52,842 nt of DNA from Candidatus Heimdallarchaeota archaeon (GTDB lineage: Archaea; Asgardarchaeota; Heimdallarchaeia; Heimdallarchaeales; Heimdallarchaeaceae). Shown here one piece after another: positions 1-52,170 of this stretch. A program made the position numbers and the translations under genes. The notes beneath the pieces are model-generated. The model was not told where the DNA came from and ran no database searches. It saw only the letters and a list, made by a program, of their open reading frames with translations. How positions within the stretch are numbered: the stretch's first letter is position 1; each line of letters opens with the position of its first letter. The stretch covers positions 1 to 52,842 of the forward strand of contig JAGLTB010000030.1 of NCBI GenBank assembly GCA_023270155.1, given 5' to 3'.

Positions 1-651
1 AAAAGGGAAAAAACGAAAATTAATACTGTTTTGAATGGTGTGGATACTGATATATTCTCTCCAGACATTAAGCCAAATCCACTCTTGAAAGAGGAAGAAG
101 GACCCATAGTTATGACAACAAGACGATTAGTTGTTAAAAACGGTGTGCTGTACTTGGTAAAAGCTTTCAAGAAAGTTGTTGAAAAATATCCAAAAGCAAA
201 ATTGATCATTATTGGGGATGGACCAGAAAAAACTCGAATTTCCAAGGAAATAAACGAGTTGGGAATTGTGAAGAATATTCAGTTTATAGGTATGGTCGCA
301 AACAAAGAAGTACCTACTTATTTAGCATCAGCTGATATTGTAGTTGTTCCAAGCATTGTAGAGGCTTCAAGCATAAGCGTCCTTGAAGCAATGGCCATGA
401 ATAAACCGGTGGTTGCTTCAGATATTCCTGGAATAAGAGAGATAACTAACAATGGTAAAAATTGTGTTTTAGTGCCTGCAAAAAAAACTGATAATATAGC
501 AGATGCAATTCTGAATTTGCTGAGCTCTGAGCAGAAAGCAGAAGAATTAGCCTCATTAGGTTATGTGGAAATTAAACAAAACTATACTTGGGAGAAGAAA
601 GCTAAAGAAATTGAGCAGATATATTATAAGGCATTAGAAGAAAAAAAGTAA
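1..651 (+). CDS. GT4-family glycosyltransferase, C-terminal part (5' end outside window)
   Basis: Frame is open from base 1 (KREKTKINTVLNGVDTDIF); GT-B/GT4 C-terminal motifs VNGVDTDIF, IIGDGPE, VVPSIVEASSISVLEAMAMNKPVVASDIPGIREI. Confidence 0.9.
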   Translation, partial: KREKTKINTVLNGVDTDIFSPDIKPNPLLKEEEGPIVMTTRRLVVKNGVLYLVKAFKKVVEKYPKAKLIIIGDGPEKTRISKEINELGIVKNIQFIGMVANKEVPTYLASADIVVVPSIVEASSISVLEAMAMNKPVVASDIPGIREITNNGKNCVLVPAKKTDNIADAILNLLSSEQKAEELASLGYVEIKQNYTWEKKAKEIEQIYYKALEEKK

Positions 652-667
652 ATCTAAACAAAGAGTA

Positions 668-1576
668 TTGAAATTCATGAACACCGAAACAAATTTTTGT
701 CTTAGGGTCGATGTTGATACATTCGAAGGTTTAAAATTGGGAATCCCTAAAGTGGTTGATTTTGCTTTAAAACTGGAGTGTTCTGTAACAATTTATCTTA
801 GTTTAGGAAAGTATGCCACAGGAAGAAATCTCTTTCGCATTATCAAAAATAAAGAGATAACAGGAAAAAGGATACCATCATGGAAAAGAAACCACCCTAA
901 AAGCATCATTCGAGGTTTGTTGTTACCTCCTAGAGGTATCAGGGATAAGGAAATAAAGAAGCTTCAGGAGTATAACACTGAAAAATTAGTCGAATTTCAT
1001 CCTCATGGTTACAACCACGTGAATTGGTCTAAATCATTTAGTGGATTAAGTTATGAGAAAACAGAAGAAAATGTAAAATTACTTATTGAGGAGTATACAA
1101 AAATCTTTGGTCAGAAACCCATAGCAAATGCAGCACCAAATTTCCAGATAAATAAACATTATTTTCACTTGCTAAAGAAAGAAAAATTTAGTTTTAGTTC
1201 TGACCTATATCATCCCGTACCTGTTAATCTTCAATTTAAATGTAGTGAAAATCAAAAAAAATCCTTCCAAATTCCTCAATTACCTGTGACAGAAACATCT
1301 ATAGAAGAATTCATCCTTCAAGGAAAAACGCCAAACCAAATAAAGAAGGAGTATAAAAAACGATTTGAGGAATGCGTTGATCTAGGAAAAGAATACATCT
1401 GCTTATATGTTCATTCCATATTTGAACCAGTAAAGCTCAATAATCTATTAAAGGAAATTATTGATTTAGTTTTCAAGTTTGATATGCAAACTTTAACTCA
1501 CAGTGAATTTGTTCAAACCCAAACAGATTTTCCTGTTGTTGAATTTGATCAATTATTTGGTGAATTAAAAAAATGA
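668..1576 (+). CDS. Polysaccharide deacetylase-family protein, ArnD-like
   Basis: N-terminal LRVDVDTFEGLKLGIPKVVD resembles ArnD (LRIDVDTFRGTREGVPRL); central EFHPHGYNHVNW and AAPNFQ segments. TTG start at 668 or ATG at 677. Confidence 0.75.
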   Translation: MKFMNTETNFCLRVDVDTFEGLKLGIPKVVDFALKLECSVTIYLSLGKYATGRNLFRIIKNKEITGKRIPSWKRNHPKSIIRGLLLPPRGIRDKEIKKLQEYNTEKLVEFHPHGYNHVNWSKSFSGLSYEKTEENVKLLIEEYTKIFGQKPIANAAPNFQINKHYFHLLKKEKFSFSSDLYHPVPVNLQFKCSENQKKSFQIPQLPVTETSIEEFILQGKTPNQIKKEYKKRFEECVDLGKEYICLYVHSIFEPVKLNNLLKEIIDLVFKFDMQTLTHSEFVQTQTDFPVVEFDQLFGELKK

Positions 1577-2727
1577 AGAAGAGAAGTGTTTGTTTAGTAA
1601 CACAAGAATATTTGAAAGGTGCTACTTGGACTTATTGTTACCATATAGCTAGTGAGTTGAGGAAAGAGCAAGAATGGGAATCTCATATTGTTGCAGCAGA
1701 CAAAAAAGATTCTACAAAACTGAAGTTCGAAAAAGATATTTCCCTTAAACTTGTTCCAACATCTTCATCAAAATTATTTTACTCTCGAAATTTTTGGAGA
1801 AAATCCTCTGTTGAGGTAAACAAAATCAAGCCAGATATTGTTCATGGAAATATGAACCTTCTTTCAACTTTAGGAATAAAAGAAGATTATCCCATTATTG
1901 AGACTGTTCATACAACATTCAGTAGAGAGAGAAGGGGCGCTAAATCTGAACCTTTTCACTCTTTAAGTTGGGTAGAAAAAAGAGTGTTGCTACTGTATCC
2001 TTGGTTAAAGAAAATTGAGAAGAGGTTATTAAATAGAGCAAGACACATTATAGCAGTTAGTGACTCAATAAAAAACGAATTAATAACAAATTATTCTATC
2101 GCTGAAGAAAAAATTACCGTAATTCCCAATGGAGTCGATACAACAACTCATTACAGAACAGAAAAGAGACTTTATACTAAAAAAGAAGATGAAATTATTC
2201 TAGGATTTCTAGGGAGAATGACATCAGGAAAAGGAGCTAAACTTCTTTTTCCAATAATTAAGAAAGTTAAAGAAATCGTCCCTAATGTAAAATTGCTTCT
2301 TGCGGGAGATGATTTAGACACTAGAACTGAAATTCGAAAAATAATAAAAGAACAAAATCTAGAGGAAAATATCATTGATTTTGGATATATTTATGACATT
2401 GAGAAGAAGAACGCTTTCTTAAGTTCTTTAGACGTCTTTCTACTCCCTTCCAGTCATGAGGGTATGAGTTTAACTCTATTGGAAGCACTAGCATGTCAGA
2501 CACCAATTTTATCAACACCACAAGCAGCAACCTTTGATCATAATGATACTATCATTCTTGTACCTAGAGAAATAGATGATATTGCAGAAAAAATTATTGA
2601 ACTGTACCAGAATAAACAAATTTTGGATAAAATAAGAGAAAAATCGCGGAGAATTGCAGAAAAATACTCTTGGGAAGAAACAACGAATCTCACTCAACAA
2701 ATATATGAAAAGGTTCTAACTAGGTAG
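1573..2727 (+). CDS. GT4-family glycosyltransferase
   Basis: VIPNGVDTTTHY, LGFLGRMTSGKGAKLL, LLPSSHEGMSLTLLEALACQTPILSTP; start overlaps the previous stop (ATGA). Confidence 0.9.
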   Translation: MKKRSVCLVTQEYLKGATWTYCYHIASELRKEQEWESHIVAADKKDSTKLKFEKDISLKLVPTSSSKLFYSRNFWRKSSVEVNKIKPDIVHGNMNLLSTLGIKEDYPIIETVHTTFSRERRGAKSEPFHSLSWVEKRVLLLYPWLKKIEKRLLNRARHIIAVSDSIKNELITNYSIAEEKITVIPNGVDTTTHYRTEKRLYTKKEDEIILGFLGRMTSGKGAKLLFPIIKKVKEIVPNVKLLLAGDDLDTRTEIRKIIKEQNLEENIIDFGYIYDIEKKNAFLSSLDVFLLPSSHEGMSLTLLEALACQTPILSTPQAATFDHNDTIILVPREIDDIAEKIIELYQNKQILDKIREKSRRIAEKYSWEETTNLTQQIYEKVLTR

Positions 2728-3783
2728 GTGTTCTTTCTCTAAATTTTCTGATGGCTCTTCTTCCTCGCTTTCTTCTAATTCTGTAACATCCTCCTTGCTT
2801 GCTTCCATTTCTTTGGCTTTCTTCTTTCTGAATGTTCTTCCTTTTTCAGCTAAAGGTAGAATAAAAAGCCAGAAGATTGGAAGCCATATAACTAGAAGGA
2901 CGTATCCCAGAACATTATGAACTGATTCTCCTAAACTGGTTCCTCCATAGTAGAAAGTGAGCATAACTATTGTGATTCTTAGGAAATTCATTAGATAGGT
3001 CCCTAAAATTCCAATTATGGTTACACCAACTGCTTTGTGATTCCAGTGTATCCTTTTTCTTGCTTCAAATAGCATTAGCAGAAAAATGAAAATGAAAATT
3101 GTCATAGAATGTATCCCGCTACATCTCGGATCAATTAAGAGACCAGGGGTTTTACTCGGTTCTCCTAAACCTACAAAAGTATTAATTCGAACCTCGTTCC
3201 ACACTATACTTGTAACATTTAAACCAAAAAAACGGAGAGTATAGGGAACAATTAATCCTGTTAACCTAGTTAACCACTTTGCTATCGACAGTTCAAAGAG
3301 ATAAGTATCAATACCTGAAAAAATTAGAACATAAAAGATAGTTGTTAGAAGTACAACATATAAACCAGGTTTTCTGTACTTTTTGAATAGCTTATCATCC
3401 CAAGTTAAATACAAAACTGCTATGAAAGCTAGAACTAATCCTAGGGGAACAAGATGGTTAATATTAGTATCACGGAACAGTATCTTCACAGTTTCTGCTC
3501 CTCTAGATATCTCGTACATTACGTAAAAATAAACTACAAAAGCTACTAGTATTGATGAGACTACATACCGTAGATATCTATTTTTGAGAAAAGATGTAAG
3601 AGGTGAAAGCTCTTCAGCTAAAGGTTCTAATTTGCTGGAAGTTCTTTGTTTGAAGTTTGAATATCTTAAATTTAATCTGGCTAAGAAGTTTCGTGATTCT
3701 TCAGCTTGAGTAATTTCATCATTCGTAGTCGTAGAGCTCTTCTGAGTAGTTTCGTTTTCTTCACCATCTACCAAATCACTCAC
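2716..3783 (-). CDS. Exosortase/archaeosortase family transmembrane transpeptidase
   Basis: Multiple TM segments with DPRCSGIHSMTIFIFIFLL (Cys), YLMNFLRITIVML (Arg), ESVHNVLGYVLLVIWLPIFWLF (His), the conserved pattern of the family; acidic C-terminal tail. Confidence 0.85.
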   Translation of the reverse strand: MSDLVDGEENETTQKSSTTTNDEITQAEESRNFLARLNLRYSNFKQRTSSKLEPLAEELSPLTSFLKNRYLRYVVSSILVAFVVYFYVMYEISRGAETVKILFRDTNINHLVPLGLVLAFIAVLYLTWDDKLFKKYRKPGLYVVLLTTIFYVLIFSGIDTYLFELSIAKWLTRLTGLIVPYTLRFFGLNVTSIVWNEVRINTFVGLGEPSKTPGLLIDPRCSGIHSMTIFIFIFLLMLFEARKRIHWNHKAVGVTIIGILGTYLMNFLRITIVMLTFYYGGTSLGESVHNVLGYVLLVIWLPIFWLFILPLAEKGRTFRKKKAKEMEASKEDVTELEESEEEEPSENLEKEHLPS

Positions 3784-4350: not shown

Positions 4351-4920
4351 TTACAGCATTACATTGCGTTTGCATTCATTACAATGAAGAATTGTACTAG
4401 ATGGAAGTGGTTCATTTGTTTTTCTAAGAATTTCTCCACAGAAGCATGCATATCCTTTCAATTTTGCAGGATTACCAAAAACCAAAGTAAAAGGTTGAAC
4501 ATCCTTAGAGACTAAACTTCCCGCCCCAATCATTGAGTATTCACCTATAGTTACACCACAGATTATTGTAGAATTAGCACCAATTGAGGAACCCTTTTTC
4601 ACTAATGTTTTAATTATCGACCATTCAGGAGATCTCGCTCTCGGTAGAAGATCATTTGTAAAGCAAACATGTGGTCCTACAAAAACATCATCTTCAATTG
4701 TAACTCCTTGATACACAGAAACTAGGTTTTGAATCTTCACATTATCCCCTATTGTAACATTGGTATCAATGAAGACTGATTTACCAAAGTTGCAATAGTT
4801 TCCTATTTTTGCACCAGTTCTTATTTGAACTTGATGCCAGATTTTAGTATCATCACCAATGGTTACATTATCTTCAACAAAAGCGGAGGGATGTACATAA
4901 TAGTTCTTTTCTTCACTCAT
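4351..4920 (-). CDS. Left-handed beta-helix (hexapeptide) acyltransferase, sugar N-acetyltransferase-like (WbpD/WlbB-like), C-terminal zinc-ribbon-like tail
   Basis: Repeated [IV]GDxxxI hexapeptides, VGPHVCFTNDLLPRARSPEW, IGAGSLVSKDVQPFTLVFGNPAKLKGYACFCGEIL...HCNECK. Confidence 0.88.
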   Translation of the reverse strand: MSEEKNYYVHPSAFVEDNVTIGDDTKIWHQVQIRTGAKIGNYCNFGKSVFIDTNVTIGDNVKIQNLVSVYQGVTIEDDVFVGPHVCFTNDLLPRARSPEWSIIKTLVKKGSSIGANSTIICGVTIGEYSMIGAGSLVSKDVQPFTLVFGNPAKLKGYACFCGEILRKTNEPLPSSTILHCNECKRNVML

Positions 4921-5833: not shown

Positions 5834-6598
5834 TCATTTATTATGGTTTTCTGAGCAAATACTACAAGTTTCATCCCTATCTACTTGGAAAGTATCAAAA
5901 GTATTGTATTGTAAATCTATATACAGCATCTTGTTAACTAACAATTTATCATAATCCTTGAAAACTAGAAATTTAATGGTTTCGTTTGCTTCAACAACTC
6001 CAAAAAGACCTGCTGTTGTTCCCATTATTCCTTCCTCAGATGTCGTAGGATAAGAACCTCGTTCAGGAATCTCTTTGAAAACGCAACGATAACAAGCAGA
6101 AACTTTGGGAATTACAGTAATTATCTGTCCTTCGAATTGATGAACCCCCCCTATTACAAACGGAATTCCTATTTTTACACAGGTGTCATTTACTAAGAAT
6201 TTAGTTTCGAAATTATCACTAGCTTCTATTATAAAATCATATCCGGATAATATGGATTCAATATTCTCCTTATTTAGTGTTAGATTATATTCCTCAATTA
6301 TCACGTCTTGATTCAGTTTATTCATTTTATCTTTAGCTGAAGTAGTTTTGTTCTTACCAACACTTGTTTCATAATGAAGAATTTGTCTATTCAAATTAGA
6401 TAATTCTACTTTATCTTTGTCTACTATTCCAATATATCCAACACCAGCACACACTAGATAATGTAAAACAGCCGAACCTAACCCCCCTAAGCCAATAACT
6501 AATACTCTGCTATTTTTTAGTTTTATTTGCCCCTCTAGACCAAAGTTTGGTATTATTGTTTGTCTATTGTATTTCTCTTCTTCTTTCTCATTAAGCAT
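5834..6598 (-). CDS. E1-like ThiF/MoeB/HesA family adenylyltransferase
   Basis: YNRQTIIPNFGLEGQIKLKNSRVLVIGLGGLGSAVLHYLVCAGVGYIGIVDKDKVELSNLNRQILH; CYRC...CSIC zinc ligands. Confidence 0.92.
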   Translation of the reverse strand: MLNEKEEEKYNRQTIIPNFGLEGQIKLKNSRVLVIGLGGLGSAVLHYLVCAGVGYIGIVDKDKVELSNLNRQILHYETSVGKNKTTSAKDKMNKLNQDVIIEEYNLTLNKENIESILSGYDFIIEASDNFETKFLVNDTCVKIGIPFVIGGVHQFEGQIITVIPKVSACYRCVFKEIPERGSYPTTSEEGIMGTTAGLFGVVEANETIKFLVFKDYDKLLVNKMLYIDLQYNTFDTFQVDRDETCSICSENHNK

Positions 6599-6679
6599 TC
6601 CAATAACCCACTGATTTTATAACAAAATATTAGTTTGCTCTTGATTGTTAAGATTGTATTTATTAGGGATTCTTATATC

Positions 6680-7084
6680 TTAAATGCTTGCAACATACTC
6701 TTTCTCCACTAACTTCCTAAAACTGTCAATTTCCTTTAAAATTATTTTTGCCTCTTTTTCCACAGAATCAGAAAGTTTTCCATGTCCTATTGCTTTCTCA
6801 TAGCATTTATTAAAATAGTTCAACTGAAAGACTATTTGAACAACACGTGCATATTGAAAAACTTGATCTGGATCTGTTACTAAAGCAACTTTCAATGAAA
6901 TCTCATTCTGTTCTTCTGGACTTAAATCTATATTTAGGCCCTCTCTACTACAGATATCAAACAGCTTATTCAGAAAGAATCTTCCCTTCTTTAGAACTCT
7001 TGCTAGTTCTTTAGCGACATCAGCTAATCCAGGAACCTCTTTCTTTATGACTTCGGCACTTTCAATAACACTTTCAAGATGCAT
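6680..7084 (-). CDS. Hypothetical helical protein
   Basis: Uninterrupted ORF in an intergenic-compatible position; no recognised family. Confidence 0.6.
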   Translation of the reverse strand: MHLESVIESAEVIKKEVPGLADVAKELARVLKKGRFFLNKLFDICSREGLNIDLSPEEQNEISLKVALVTDPDQVFQYARVVQIVFQLNYFNKCYEKAIGHGKLSDSVEKEAKIILKEIDSFRKLVEKEYVASI

Positions 7085-7197: not shown

Positions 7198-9294
7198 TTA
7201 AGGTTCCAAAAGCATTCTTAGAGTTACAAGAATCCCATTGATTTCGTTCTTTAATTTTTCAATTGTTTGTTGTCTCTCTCTGAATAGTTTAACATAGGAT
7301 TCTTTAGTCATGCTTTTCTTCTCTCTGTATTCTTGCTGAAGTGCTCTTAGATTTCTTCTCTCTTCTATGAGTTTTCGTTCAGCTATCTCAACTTTCTGAA
7401 CATTTTCTTTGTATCTTCCACCTTGTTGAATAAGATTTTGTTTTGTTTGTTTCAAAGCTTCTTCTTCAGAACGTAAGCGTTTTTGCAATTGTGTTTGAAT
7501 TTCCTTTCCTTGCCTTGCTTTTAGTTTCTTGGAAGCTATTTTTGCTCTAGTTTCACGTAATCTTTCTCTAATTGCCAAAACTTCTTCGTATTGCTTAACA
7601 AATTCTTCAATTTCTTCAACAGGAATGAATTCTTTCTCCTCTTCACCAACAATTTCCTTTGCTGCCTTTGTAGAATATCTGATTCCTAGATAAATAGCGA
7701 AAATTATACCAACTGTTATTATCTGGAAGAAATATGTAATCCAAAGATTTACTCTATTGTAAGTAAAAAGTACTTCAATGGGAGCATTATCACTTCCTGA
7801 AAATACATTCGTAGAAAAGTGAAGAATTCTTTTGAAGCCAAGACTGCTAAAATCAAAATTTCTATCATAACCTAAAGAGAATTCCTGATATGGATCTGGG
7901 CTAAAATAGCTGTAAGAACGGTATACTGCACCTTTAGGTAAGATTATATCTAATTTTAACTCATCCACTGTCCAGTTAATAATAGAGCATGGACTGAGTC
8001 TTAATTTGTAATTGGTAGTTGATTGTTCTTTAGATAAGAATACATCTAACGGAACTTTATATTTAATTGTGAAAGTCAACTCATCCCCTTGGAAGAGAGG
8101 AGAACGTGGGAATATTACCAAACCTTGGAGTCCTGGATAGACACTTTCACGTAAATTATAGGATCCTCTTTCAAAGTATGCGTCTTCATCTAATTGATAC
8201 AACAAATTCAATCCCCCAATTTCATCGTCTAATGCTAGGACTGTTGCATTCGCAGGAAGAACCACAGTAAACGCATTTAAACCGTATAGTTTAGTAAGAA
8301 TCAGAGAAGAATCTTCTGGCCAAGCTGGTCCTAGGAAAACAAGATTTTGTTCTTCAGTTACTATAGCTAGACCATAAGGATCAATTTCTATTGTGCGATG
8401 AACATAGCTTGCTTTGAACAAAATTGTGTTAGTAGCATCTTCTACCGCCTGAGCTGTACTCACAGACGAGACATAAACGTTCATAAGCAAATCATCATCA
8501 TATGATTGACTGTAGTTGAAAGGATGTCTTGTAACATTTGTCCATTCTAATCTATCTTGTTCTGGTAAACTTAGTAAGATGAGATTTTCTGTTGAATTGT
8601 TTGGAGTTATTTGAAACTCTGCATCATCAACAAAAAGGTCATTACCTTGTTTATTCACCACAACCGAGCTATTACTAATGATTGGAATGTTGTTAATGAG
8701 AGGATAAAAGAGTTCAGAGAAATGCAATAGTTGTTCTTTGTCTTTAATAGTATAACTAAAAGGTTGAGCTAATTCTATGTAGACACTAACATAATATGTA
8801 TCACCCATACCAATTGCGTTTCTGTTTTCATGAAATGGAACTAGATAAGTTGTGTAATTTATTAAACTACTAAACGTATAGGTGCGAGTTGCGTTTTTGT
8901 ATACGACATCCTCAAGTGAATTGTTTGCCACACGGAAACTTATGAAAGATATATTTCCTGTATTCAAATTAGGTAATGTATAGTTGAAATATGTTAAATT
9001 GACATTTCCAATAACATTTACTTCAACCGAATCTATGATGGATACGACACCAAAATGCTCAAAGTTAACTGTTCTATTGAATTTAGCAGTTGCATTTAAC
9101 CCATAATCATAATAATCTCCACCAGTATAATTGACGTCTCTAACTTGAACAATGGGATTTTCATTGATGTTCTGTAAGCTGTCATTATGGTTTGATACTT
9201 GGTTTTCTTGACCTACACCAAACATGGGAAATAATGACACACTAATAATAGCAAGTATAGCAAAAGTTAACAGCGTACCCTTAGTAATTTTCAT
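7198..9294 (-). CDS. Ribophorin I-like (OST1) single-pass membrane protein with signal peptide and coiled-coil cytosolic tail
   Basis: ORF extends to 9369, but MKITKGTLLTFAILAIISVSLFPMFG (9294) is a natural signal peptide start. Blocks resemble ribophorin I: HRTIEIDPYGLAIVTEE, FTVVLPANATVLALDDEIG, IFPRSPLFQGDELTFTIKYKVP, VDELKLDIILPKGA, IEVLFTYNRVNLW followed by TM and coiled coil. Confidence 0.85.
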   Translation of the reverse strand: MKITKGTLLTFAILAIISVSLFPMFGVGQENQVSNHNDSLQNINENPIVQVRDVNYTGGDYYDYGLNATAKFNRTVNFEHFGVVSIIDSVEVNVIGNVNLTYFNYTLPNLNTGNISFISFRVANNSLEDVVYKNATRTYTFSSLINYTTYLVPFHENRNAIGMGDTYYVSVYIELAQPFSYTIKDKEQLLHFSELFYPLINNIPIISNSSVVVNKQGNDLFVDDAEFQITPNNSTENLILLSLPEQDRLEWTNVTRHPFNYSQSYDDDLLMNVYVSSVSTAQAVEDATNTILFKASYVHRTIEIDPYGLAIVTEEQNLVFLGPAWPEDSSLILTKLYGLNAFTVVLPANATVLALDDEIGGLNLLYQLDEDAYFERGSYNLRESVYPGLQGLVIFPRSPLFQGDELTFTIKYKVPLDVFLSKEQSTTNYKLRLSPCSIINWTVDELKLDIILPKGAVYRSYSYFSPDPYQEFSLGYDRNFDFSSLGFKRILHFSTNVFSGSDNAPIEVLFTYNRVNLWITYFFQIITVGIIFAIYLGIRYSTKAAKEIVGEEEKEFIPVEEIEEFVKQYEEVLAIRERLRETRAKIASKKLKARQGKEIQTQLQKRLRSEEEALKQTKQNLIQQGGRYKENVQKVEIAERKLIEERRNLRALQQEYREKKSMTKESYVKLFRERQQTIEKLKNEINGILVTLRMLLEP

Positions 9295-10248: not shown

Positions 10249-12915
10249 ATGGAGATTATGATGAAGCGATTCGATGACAGAAAATTGAAACCTAAGCTAA
10301 CCCCTATGATGCAACAGTGGCAAGATATAAAGAAACAACATAAAGAGTATATACTCTTCTTCAGAGCAGGAGATTTTTACGAGTGCTTTAATGAAGATGC
10401 AAAAATCGCTTCAGAAGTTCTAAACATAACATTAACTTCAAGAACATTGGGTGAGAAGAAATTTCCATTAGCTGGTGTTCCCTATCATGCAGTGGATGCT
10501 TATATTGCAAAAATGGTTGAAAATGGCCATAAGGTTGCTATAGTTGAACAGCTGGAAGATCCAAAAGTAGCTAAAAAAGTAGTGAAAAGAGGAGTTGTCC
10601 AGCTTGTAACACGAGGAACAATCACCCTTCCAGAGTCTCTATCAAAGGGACATAATAATTATCTTGCGTCTATTACCAAAATAGAGAATTTGATAGGTTT
10701 AGCTGCTCTTGATTTGTCTACAGGAGAATTTCTAGTAACTGACTTTGAAAGCGACAAAAGTAACAATTCACTTGAATTGGAATTAGCTAGATTGAATCCT
10801 TCAGAAATCTTAGTGGAAGAATCCTTTTGGAAAAAGCTTCAATTCTATTATGATGAGTACAAAAGCACAATAACACATAGAGAGGACTATTATTTTGATA
10901 TAGAACAAGGAAGACAGGATATCTGTAGTCTTCTTAACGTTTTAAGTTTAGAAGGATTCGGGGTTGGGGAATACAATCCATCTATAGGTGCGGCTGGAGC
11001 AATTTTACGGTACATAAAGGAGACACAATTACGGGAACAGTTTCCAAGTATTACTAAAATTAGTAGAATAGAAGGTCAAGAATTTATGTCTCTTGATTCC
11101 AACACAATTAGAAATCTAGAGTTAATAGAAAACCTTCGAGACAGAACAGAGTATGGTACTCTTCGTCAAGTCTTAGATAACACAAATACACCAAACGGTT
11201 CAAGATTACTTACTTCATGGATAGTAAGGCCAAGTCTGAACTTAGAAGTAATAATGTCTAGAATAGATGCAACAGAGATTCTGTTCAACGAGACTATCGC
11301 TCGAGAAGAGATACGAAATATTCTCAGTAAAATGAGCGATATTGAGCGAATAATAGGAAGAATATGTTTAGGAAAGAGTAGACCCAGAGATCTTATAGCT
11401 CTTAAGAACTCATTAGAATTAATACCTGACATCCGTTCATTATTGTCAGATTTCAAATCAAATCTTATCAAAGAAATTAGAAAGAATCTTGATCCTGTCA
11501 AAGAAGTAATTACAATAATCTCATCAGGAATCTCAGATGAAGTACCATCTAGTTTGAAAGATGGTAATGTAATTAGAGATGGACACAATGAAGAACTTGA
11601 TGAATTGAGGAAGATTCAGAGAAGTGGAAAATCGTTTCTCACGTCGTTAGAAGCAAGAGAAAAAGTTAGTACAGGAATTAAAAATCTTAAAGTTCGATTC
11701 AATAAGGTTTTTGGATATTATATTGAAGTGCCAAAAGCATCAACAGATAAGGTACCAACAGAATACGAAAGAAAACAGACATTAGTGAATGCAGAGAGAT
11801 ATATTACTCCAGAATTAAAAGAATATGAAGAGAAAATACTGAATGCAGAGGAGAAAATTTCAGCATTAGAAGAAGAGTTGTTCAATGAGATACTAATCGA
11901 AATCTCTTTGCATGCAACAAAGATTCAACAAGATGCTTATTATTCCGCTGTGCTTGATATCATTTCCACTTTTGCACAAAATGCTGTCTATTATAATTAT
12001 TCCAAACCCGAAATAACAAACGAGAGTTTTATTGAGATTAAGGATGGAAGACATCCAGTTGTAGAAAGACTTCTTACCCATACTTCGTTCATCCCAAATG
12101 ACATTCTACTCAAAAAGGAAGGAGAAAGAATACTAATAATAACTGGTCCTAATATGGGAGGAAAATCGACACTGTTGAGACAAGTTGCGTTAATAATTCT
12201 CATGGCACAAATGGGAAGTTTCATTCCTGCTTCTTTTGCTAAGATAGGTTTGACCGATAGAATATTTACAAGAATTGGGGCTCATGATGTTCTAGTAGAA
12301 CATAGATCCACATTTATGGTTGAGATGTATGAGTGCGCAAACATATTGAATAATGCAACTGAAAGAAGCTTAGTAATTCTTGATGAGGTAGGAAGAGGAA
12401 CTTCCACTTATGATGGTGTTGCAATTGCTTTATCTGTTACAGAATTCTTACACAACAATATTGGTAAAAATGGACCAAGAACACTCTTTGCAACTCATTA
12501 TCATGAATTAATAGAATTAGAGGAAAGATTATCCAATGTTAAAAATTATCATGTATCAGTTAAAAATGTTGATGGGGAGATACATTTTCTCTATAAATTA
12601 AAGGAAGGGGGTATAAGTGAAAGTTTTGGAATTCATGTTGCATCATTAGCAGGATTGCCAAAAGAAGTGATTGATCGTGCAAATGATACATTATCCCAAC
12701 TCCATACACAAGATAGAATGAAAGTTTTACCAGCTTTAGCTGTAAATGAAAAATCTCAAAAGAAACCGAAAGTCAAGGAAATTATTTCAGAACAACTTGA
12801 AATTGTAAGTGAGATATCTGAATTGGATGTTGAAGGGATAGCTCCCATAGAAGCCCTGAACGTTCTAAATAAACTAGTTAGAAGAACTAAAGAGCTTTTA
12901 AAGGATAAAGAATAA
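10249..12915 (+). CDS. mutS: DNA mismatch repair protein MutS (MutS1 type)
   Basis: N-terminal mismatch-binding LFFRAGDFYECF (FYE), Walker A TGPNMGGKSTLLRQ, VILDEVGRGTSTYDGVAIA, LFATHYHEL. Confidence 0.98.
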   Translation: MEIMMKRFDDRKLKPKLTPMMQQWQDIKKQHKEYILFFRAGDFYECFNEDAKIASEVLNITLTSRTLGEKKFPLAGVPYHAVDAYIAKMVENGHKVAIVEQLEDPKVAKKVVKRGVVQLVTRGTITLPESLSKGHNNYLASITKIENLIGLAALDLSTGEFLVTDFESDKSNNSLELELARLNPSEILVEESFWKKLQFYYDEYKSTITHREDYYFDIEQGRQDICSLLNVLSLEGFGVGEYNPSIGAAGAILRYIKETQLREQFPSITKISRIEGQEFMSLDSNTIRNLELIENLRDRTEYGTLRQVLDNTNTPNGSRLLTSWIVRPSLNLEVIMSRIDATEILFNETIAREEIRNILSKMSDIERIIGRICLGKSRPRDLIALKNSLELIPDIRSLLSDFKSNLIKEIRKNLDPVKEVITIISSGISDEVPSSLKDGNVIRDGHNEELDELRKIQRSGKSFLTSLEAREKVSTGIKNLKVRFNKVFGYYIEVPKASTDKVPTEYERKQTLVNAERYITPELKEYEEKILNAEEKISALEEELFNEILIEISLHATKIQQDAYYSAVLDIISTFAQNAVYYNYSKPEITNESFIEIKDGRHPVVERLLTHTSFIPNDILLKKEGERILIITGPNMGGKSTLLRQVALIILMAQMGSFIPASFAKIGLTDRIFTRIGAHDVLVEHRSTFMVEMYECANILNNATERSLVILDEVGRGTSTYDGVAIALSVTEFLHNNIGKNGPRTLFATHYHELIELEERLSNVKNYHVSVKNVDGEIHFLYKLKEGGISESFGIHVASLAGLPKEVIDRANDTLSQLHTQDRMKVLPALAVNEKSQKKPKVKEIISEQLEIVSEISELDVEGIAPIEALNVLNKLVRRTKELLKDKE

Positions 12916-12960
12916 TAGAAAGCAGATGCATTAGTAATAAAATCGCTTGCTTGTGATAAA

Positions 12961-14781
12961 ATGACAACGAAAATAATCAAGCTAGATTCTCTTACAATAA
13001 ATAAAATTGCAGCTGGAGAGGTAATCGAAAGACCATCTTCTGTTGTAAAAGAACTAGTTGAGAATTCAATAGATGCTGACAGTACAGAAATCACCATAAA
13101 CATCCAAGAGGGTGGAAAAAAGCTAATTGAGATTATAGATAACGGAAACGGGATGTCTCATGATGATGCAGTTTTAGCCATTCAAAGATATTCAACAAGC
13201 AAGATAAGAACAGCTGATGATCTTTTTTCTATTTACAGTCTAGGTTTCAGAGGAGAAGCATTAGCTAGTATTGTAAGTGTGGCTCAAGTTGAGATAACAA
13301 CTAAAGCAAACGAGGATGAGTTGGGTACACTTCTTTCAGTTGAAGGGGGAGAAATCAAAATTGACAAGAAGACAACAGCATCAAACGGTACGAGAATTGC
13401 TGTTAGAAACTTGTTCTTCAATGTCCCTGTTAGAAGAAAGTTCCTAAAATCAATTACAACAGAGATTAATCACATTACGGAATTTGCAACCAAACTTGCA
13501 TTAGCGTATCCGAGTATTTCCTTTTCTCTAAATCACAATGGTAGAAGCCTAATCTCTGCACCAAAAGGAGAGCTAATATCTCAAATTGCATCTATTTTTG
13601 GTAATAAAGTTGCTAAAGCATGTATATCAATAGAAAAGAAAGAAAATAATCATTCAATTACAGGATTTATTACGAAACCTGAATTTTCCAGAAAATCCAA
13701 AGATTATATGTATATATTTGTCAATAAGCGACCTATTTTCAACAAATTGATATCAGATGCTATTTTACAAGGGTATGGTACCGCTATTCCTGGTGACAGG
13801 TATCCAATCGTGTTTCTGTTTCTAGATTTGCCAACAGAAGAAGTAGATGTTAACGTTCATCCCACTAAAAAGGAAATACGTTTTAGCGAAGAGCCATTCA
13901 TTTTTAGTCTTGTGGAGTCTTGTGTACAAAAATCATTGATTGATAGTGGATTAAAAATATTTGAGAGAATCAACGATACTAAAATACAACCAACTCTTTT
14001 CAAGGAAATTTCAAAAGAAAGAACAGTTTCAAGTAAACAATTTCCAAAAGTAATCAAGACCAAAGCAACAGTTGAAGATAAAACCTCTATTCGAATGATT
14101 AAAAGACGAGACAAAACAATAGAATATTTTCTTCCAGAAGGAGAAAGGAAAGAAGAAGAAGAATTTCACGTTGAGAAAAAGGCTAGTATCAGAGTTATAG
14201 GTTTAATCAAAAACACCTATATCATAGCTGAAACTGAAGAAGGGTTACTTTTATGTGACCAGCATGCTGCTCATGAGAAAATCAACTATTCAAAATATCT
14301 TAACCAATTAGAAAATAAAAAGATAAGCATTCAAAAATTATTAGCGCCGGTTTCTGTGCGACTTAAACCTTCTGAATTTCAAATGATTGAAGAGATGAAG
14401 ATACAACTGAAATACTACGGTTTTGATGTTGAAATTTTTGGTAAGAATGAGATTCTGATAAGATCTATTCCTTCAATAATGGGTGTAACTATCTCACATG
14501 AAGTTGCGAAAGACATAATAGATATTTTCAAAGAATATAATAAAGAAATTAAAGAAAAACTTGTTCTAGAGGATCTTGGATTCATAAAGGAGATAATATC
14601 TTTATTTGCTTGCAGAAGATCTATAAAAGCAGGTGATAAAATCCCTGTTAGAGAAGCAGAAAAGCTTATCGCTGAACTTCTATCTTTAAAAGAGCCTTTT
14701 ACCTGTCCTCATGGACGACCTACAATTATTATTCTGAACGAGAAGTATATAGAAGAAATCTTTCAAAGGGATTATAGATGA
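12961..14781 (+). CDS. mutL: DNA mismatch repair protein MutL
   Basis: IAAGEVIERPSSVVKELVENSIDA, DNGNGMSHDD, TSKIRTADDLFSIYSLGFRGEALASI, VDVNVHPTKKEIRF, C-terminal DQHAAHE, ACRRSIKAG, CPHGRP. Confidence 0.98.
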   Translation: MTTKIIKLDSLTINKIAAGEVIERPSSVVKELVENSIDADSTEITINIQEGGKKLIEIIDNGNGMSHDDAVLAIQRYSTSKIRTADDLFSIYSLGFRGEALASIVSVAQVEITTKANEDELGTLLSVEGGEIKIDKKTTASNGTRIAVRNLFFNVPVRRKFLKSITTEINHITEFATKLALAYPSISFSLNHNGRSLISAPKGELISQIASIFGNKVAKACISIEKKENNHSITGFITKPEFSRKSKDYMYIFVNKRPIFNKLISDAILQGYGTAIPGDRYPIVFLFLDLPTEEVDVNVHPTKKEIRFSEEPFIFSLVESCVQKSLIDSGLKIFERINDTKIQPTLFKEISKERTVSSKQFPKVIKTKATVEDKTSIRMIKRRDKTIEYFLPEGERKEEEEFHVEKKASIRVIGLIKNTYIIAETEEGLLLCDQHAAHEKINYSKYLNQLENKKISIQKLLAPVSVRLKPSEFQMIEEMKIQLKYYGFDVEIFGKNEILIRSIPSIMGVTISHEVAKDIIDIFKEYNKEIKEKLVLEDLGFIKEIISLFACRRSIKAGDKIPVREAEKLIAELLSLKEPFTCPHGRPTIIILNEKYIEEIFQRDYR

Positions 14782-51282: not shown

Positions 51283-52170
51283 TTATCGGTTTCGTTTTCT
51301 CCTTAAGAAGAAAACTCCACCTAAAATTGCTAATGAAGCTATTGTTGAGATACCCCATGGAAAAGCACTTTCATCTGTAGGTGTTGGAGTAGTTGGCTGG
51401 GTTGGAGGAGGAGGTACATAAAGCGCATATTTAATATCAATATTAAAACTATCTGAAAATCCTTCTAGCCAAGAAATAGATCTGATTTTTAGATTTAGTA
51501 CTTTAAACAAACCTGAAGTCGCATTAAAGGTTAAAGTAATTGTCATGTCGAAGTCAGTTATATTTGTAGGTATGACAAACAAACCACCCATATCACCCAT
51601 ATCTACGCCTGTCAATAATCCGGAAAGAATAGTTGCATTAATTTCATCAGCATGAGAGTAACTATATATTTTGAGAAAACTGGTGTCTAAAGTTGTATTT
51701 ACTTCCATATTGAAATTTGTAGTATAATCACTTATATTTTCTAAAAGATCATCGAATAGAATAAGATTTTCAGTATCATTTACAAAATCACCATAATATT
51801 GAAGATAGTTAGAAATACTACCTATCGTGAGTGGAAGTGCAATTGGAAGTCCAATAGGCAAGACGTAATTTGTTGAGACTACAAGTACGTCTTCAAATAA
51901 TGTCTGATTGCTTTGTGAAAGACCATCTTTATCATATACATCATAATTATAACCATTATCTAACAATTCAGTAAATTCAATTTCCATCGTTGTATTTTCC
52001 TTGAGAAGCAACGAATAATCTTGTCCATAAAAACTCATATTTTTTAATTCAAACTTGTAACGTTCATCAGTTTCTACACCCCAATCAGTAGCTGCTTTGG
52101 TAGGAGTTGTAATGACCAATGAAAAAACAAGTAGTAGAATCCCATAAGAAATTATTAAACCTCTTTTCAT
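51283..52170 (-). CDS. Surface protein with signal peptide and CTERM-like C-terminal sorting signal
   Basis: MKRGLIISYGILLLVFSLVITTPTKA; C-terminus PPPPTQPTTPTPTDESAFPWGISTIASLAILGGVFFLRRKRNR. Confidence 0.75.
   Translation of the reverse strand: MKRGLIISYGILLLVFSLVITTPTKAATDWGVETDERYKFELKNMSFYGQDYSLLLKENTTMEIEFTELLDNGYNYDVYDKDGLSQSNQTLFEDVLVVSTNYVLPIGLPIALPLTIGSISNYLQYYGDFVNDTENLILFDDLLENISDYTTNFNMEVNTTLDTSFLKIYSYSHADEINATILSGLLTGVDMGDMGGLFVIPTNITDFDMTITLTFNATSGLFKVLNLKIRSISWLEGFSDSFNIDIKYALYVPPPPTQPTTPTPTDESAFPWGISTIASLAILGGVFFLRRKRNR

Follow-up and report, generated by a model that had tools for sequence, protein, structure and literature searches.

The gene at positions 7198-9294 (minus strand) of the window, by which we mean the whole 52,842-nt stretch of contig JAGLTB010000030.1 that was analysed, very probably encodes the orthologue in Heimdallarchaeia of ribophorin I (OST1), which is a non-catalytic subunit of the oligosaccharyltransferase, the machinery that adds sugars to proteins crossing a membrane; this reading includes its predicted ribosome-docking mechanism. 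The source organism is a heimdallarchaeon of the same genus as AB_125 (source assembly 82% complete), and the gene is present in 21/21 genomes of that genus. An earlier note, made from the sequence by itself, had read the product as a full-length ribophorin I (OST1)-like protein, a reading borne out here by family, profile and fold. The 698-residue protein presents a signal peptide, two beta-sandwich ectodomains, one transmembrane (TM) helix and a 150-aa cytosolic tail, which are laid out as follows:

7198..9294, minus strand: homologue of OST1 / ribophorin I (Pfam PF04597), 698 aa and a stop codon
9220..9294, minus strand: N-terminal signal peptide, residues 1-25 (hydrophobic segment at residues 10-28)
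8404..9099, minus strand: ectodomain 1, residues 66-297, beta-rich in the AF2 model and aligned to human in the profile search
7753..8403, minus strand: ectodomain 2, residues 298-514, holding most of the Pfam match and the R-IE-GLAIVTEE, DEIG and PRSPLF blocks
7675..7752, minus strand: single TM helix, residues about 515-540 (hydropathy 519-537; model helix 515-547)
7201..7650, minus strand: predicted cytosolic four-helix bundle, residues 549-698

The coordinates and strand given in the earlier note were correct. The longest open reading frame reaches 9369, and the start is placed at the internal ATG at 9294 because this codon opens the signal peptide, has a GAGG upstream and agrees with the start of most relatives; the start region is conserved in A2. 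The signal peptide was called from hydropathy and the model rather than with a dedicated predictor, and the single C-terminal TM helix was recognized in the same way. All the ribophorin I blocks that had been quoted occur in the translation in the order claimed (HRTIEIDPYGLAIVTEE, FTVVLPANATVLALDDEIG, FPRSPLFQGDELTFTIKYKVPL, DELKLDIILPKGA and VLFTYNRVNL), followed by the one TM helix that had been placed between ectodomain and tail, and by a charged tail that extends nine residues past the end quoted for it (NEINGIL-VTLRMLLEP). The ectodomain carries 17 N-X-S/T sequons.

Ribophorin_I was the sole Pfam family found in the protein, with a score of 45.5 bits (E 7.7e-12) over a curated cut-off of 25 bits, the match spanning only the second half of the model (257-435); ectodomain 1 is divergent and was missed by it. 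With the sequence alone, phmmer gave too weak a result against the PDB (human E=0.12), and the profile search decided, with a profile of 59 Asgard homologues matching human RPN1 residues 24-604 at 3.9e-53, yeast Ost1 33-471 at 2.3e-32 and the tail structure 8WHN at 1.1e-43. Together with the presence of the gene throughout the genus, these scores are far beyond chance. When the AlphaFold model of the full protein, built from the 59-homologue alignment (mean pLDDT 81.4), was compared with the PDB using Foldseek, human and yeast OST1 chains took the first eight places (E 1e-29 to 1e-21; TM-score up to 0.75 on target), aligned across both ectodomains and the TM helix. Both the Pfam search and the comparison of a model with OST1/RPN1 had been proposed beforehand as checks. 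Sequence homology to OST1 and a predicted fold for the entire protein are thus what the present analysis establishes.

The two similar luminal beta domains of OST1 are recovered in the model, in the Foldseek matches to OST1 and by hhalign, whose profile-profile comparison aligned ectodomain 1 with ectodomain 2 (probability 98.6, 9% identity), in agreement with the description of the Ost1 luminal domains as "two similar" in a review that also covers the role of OST1 (PMC7226087). Residues D357 and R397 of ectodomain 2 are invariant in the 59 Asgard sequences.

Human RPN1 (PDB 6S7O_E, 8B6L_O) is collinear with the window protein over nearly the whole length, with the same domains in the same order, but identity is only ~15%, the ectodomain 1 region is longer in the window protein, and the human tail has diverged strongly in sequence. 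Yeast Ost1 (PDB 6C26_1) shares the two ectodomains and the TM helix but does not have the cytosolic bundle, since the match stops just after the TM helix and the chain comprises only 476 residues. Closer at hand, the ribophorin of Ca. Heimdallarchaeum endolithica PR6 (CP084167.1; L123), from another genus of the same family, is 45% identical over its whole length. The OST1 of MK-D1 (Ca. Prometheoarchaeum syntrophicum, WP_147663064.1, PDB 8WHN) presents the same signal peptide, ectodomain, TM helix and four-helix bundle, although it belongs to another Asgard lineage.

Modelled alone, the tail is predicted to form a four-helix bundle (AF2 pLDDT 92.1; helices 11-39, 45-74, 78-111 and 116-146), a feature found in human and MK-D1 OST1 and absent in yeast. 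The only PDB match of this fold below 0.001 was 8WHN (TM-score 0.82/0.86, rmsd 2.0 Å), which the tail profile matched at 3.3e-40; 8WHN is the crystal structure of the Lokiarchaeon (MK-D1) OST1 cytosolic tail, which binds ribosomes in pull-down assays (PMC11417166). Where the earlier note spoke of a coiled-coil cytosolic tail, the model gives a four-helix bundle and not an extended coiled coil. The claim that this element is conserved holds across Asgard archaea and is weak towards human. Tails measured about 144-174 aa in the fetched full-length Asgard sequences with a placeable TM helix, the aligned tail was 149 aa in two homologues whose TM helix fell below the hydropathy threshold, and a tail of about 150-165 aa was seen in nearly every full-length homologue examined. 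Against the human tail, the tail-only profile gave E=0.16, and human OST1 came up at E=2 (TMq 0.58) when the fold of the tail alone was searched, neither being significant. The link between archaeal and human tails is therefore drawn from the place and length of the tail in the full-length match, together with the topology comparison in PMC11417166, and not from the tail alone.

This weak likeness, along with a net charge of only +7 in the window tail, could be taken to mean that the protein is a true OST1 homologue whose archaeal tail binds a non-ribosome partner, cytosolic or in the membrane, ribosome binding being a chance property or a later one. We judge this unlikely, because the MK-D1 tail, of the same fold and 22% identical in the tail alignment, pulls down ribosomes (PMC11417166), and because tail length and motif are conserved across Asgard families. 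That the protein is instead an unrelated surface protein joining a generic beta-sandwich, as in the N-domains of M1 aminopeptidases, to a coiled-coil tail is scarcely credible: leukotriene A4 hydrolase (the next-best fold family, TM-score 0.25) and aminopeptidases were also matched by Foldseek at about 3e-07, and tropomyosins were picked by the tail profile at about 1e-5, but OST1 chains lead the aminopeptidase-type matches by at least 14 orders of magnitude across both ectodomains and the TM helix, and the full-length profile reaches human RPN1. The Foldseek ranking and the RPN1 profile match rule out the aminopeptidase-like ectodomain, and the Foldseek and tail-profile searches led us to reject the generic coiled-coil.

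Taking the protein as OST1, its mode of action can be proposed from its homologues. The signal peptide would direct the two beta-sandwich domains to the outside of the cell membrane, beside the catalytic subunit STT3/AglB, where they may hold the chain while it is nascent or newly glycosylated. The one TM helix would pack in the oligosaccharyltransferase complex, and the cytosolic four-helix bundle would dock the ribosome, coupling N-glycosylation to translocation. Membership of the complex, an effect on N-glycosylation and ribosome binding are thus predicted for the window protein from what its homologues do. Among the partners whose search had been suggested, STT3 was found in the same genome (G000:C125, 8.1e-49) and co-occurs with OST1 in the genus (18/21 genomes). 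OST3/6 was matched in part, through TM segments and thioredoxin-like segments. In most of the genus the TM half of the OST3/6 model (181-288) is the only part that matches a protein of 143-147 aa (e.g. G000:C1:10226-10552), and thioredoxin-like halves are matched elsewhere. The Pfam models of OST48, DAD and TRAP-alpha had no match in the genus, and neither did the positive controls, so this result does not speak for absence.

OST1 is widespread in Asgard archaea, with a profile match in 221/228 genomes (216 with E below 1e-15). A scan of GTDB genomes, made with a 12-row family alignment as the 59-row one was too diverse for a pattern-based scan, returned 22 close homologues (45-89% identity), nearly all labelled Heimdallarchaeota; AB_125 (contig G009:C19 of the same-genus genomes) and Ca. 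Heimdallarchaeum endolithica PR6 are among them. The class of the window protein (95/93) and the family groupings come out in the gene tree, which places human and yeast together on one separate long branch whose nearest Asgard group the tree does not resolve. This distribution, and a tree that follows Asgard taxonomy, argue for inheritance within Asgard archaea since their common ancestor rather than import from eukaryotes. A recent transfer or a contaminant from a eukaryote would be in keeping with the lack of full-length homologues outside Asgard archaea and eukaryotes in the sampled genomes, but it is most improbable given the 221 carriers, the tree, and a gene order that is the same in genus members on contigs of up to 345 kb; recent eukaryote-to-Heimdall transfer was rejected on distribution and tree. 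The near-universal occurrence, the kept tail length and the 8WHN match support the earlier suggestion that the whole architecture, tail included, predates eukaryotes. By far the strongest Ribophorin_I match of an Asgard OST1 belongs to L002 (G179, family f27; 4e-41 vs 7.7e-12 for the window protein), which is not obviously eukaryotic contamination because its contig also has the acetyltransferase neighbour described below.

The surroundings of the gene include several functions related to glycans or to the cell surface:

4351..4920, minus strand: left-handed beta-helix acetyltransferase (closest solved relative 3MQG, 6.3e-44), an OST1 neighbour in many Asgard families
2716..3783, minus strand: archaeosortase/exosortase family protein (PF09721 2.8e-13, TIGR04178 4.7e-13), surface-protein context
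1..2727, plus strand: two glycosyltransferases of family GT4, with a deformylase/GH57-like protein, in a glycan context

The acetyltransferase lies near OST1 in families f1, f2, f3, f4, f7, f11, f26 and f27 and in some members of f19. Its relative 3MQG is WlbB, which N-acetylates a nucleotide sugar; the linkage fits a role in glycan synthesis and proves none. At 51283-52170 a secreted protein ends in a TM segment and an RRKRNR tail resembling a sorting signal. At 10249-14781, next to DeoC and OST1, a gene for MutS with all five Pfam domains adjoins a MutL-like gene; this order is maintained throughout the genus, and bacterial-type mismatch repair in Heimdallarchaeia is possible. In most of the genus OST1 also has for neighbours an E1-like protein of the MoeB/UbaA type and a 134-aa protein with no family match (5834-7084 in the window).

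The profile search found no full-length OST1 among 67 sampled non-Asgard archaeal genomes, five of which gave any match at all. In three of these the match was to short stretches of the tail region, and in the other two it covered ectodomain 2, in proteins about 315-362 aa long:

L085, L092 (G249) and L086 (G270): one-ectodomain OST1-like proteins, whose ectodomain and TM helix precede either a PIN domain or a winged helix of DUF7343

These half-size homologues are possibly single-domain relatives of OST1, and their presence outside Asgard archaea, together with the mutual alignment of ectodomains 1 and 2, suggests that OST1 may have arisen through ectodomain duplication. Within Asgard family f28, four OST1 proteins of 983-1047 aa (L074, L075, L078 and L079, one of them cut at the locus end) have a long N-terminal extension. 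An FKBP-type PPIase domain was found in the extension of the two that were scanned (Pfam 3.5e-9 and 2.7e-7), one of which also has a Big_7 Ig domain, and the other two extensions are alike by eye. A tentative scenario, somewhat less likely than not, would be that one archaeal membrane-anchored ectodomain, a form still met outside Asgard archaea in the proteins with PIN or winged-helix tails, was duplicated in tandem in the Asgard stem and its tail swapped for a ribosome-docking four-helix bundle, which animals retained and yeast lost, with one Asgard family later gaining an N-terminal FKBP that would couple proline isomerisation to glycosylation.

As the earlier note stated, Asgard homologues of ribophorin I had already been reported: ribophorin is listed as universal in these archaea (PMC8813620), it is described as reported earlier (PMC10307638), and Asgard ribophorin I with a ribosome-binding tail, together with a crystal structure of that tail and the inference that it predates eukaryotes, is a correct finding already published in 2024 (PMC11417166). 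For the FKBP-OST1 fusions, the one-ectodomain PIN/winged-helix proteins and the acetyltransferase neighbour, no earlier report was found in the searchable literature. Ribophorin has also been suggested to be mammal-specific and late (PMC8993221), which is contradicted by a complete ribophorin I plan that includes the bundle missing from yeast, is common to nearly all Asgard archaea and is confirmed here in a heimdallarchaeal genus. With the one-ectodomain proteins, the FKBP-OST1 fusions and the acetyltransferase neighbour, how OST1 originated becomes a tractable question.
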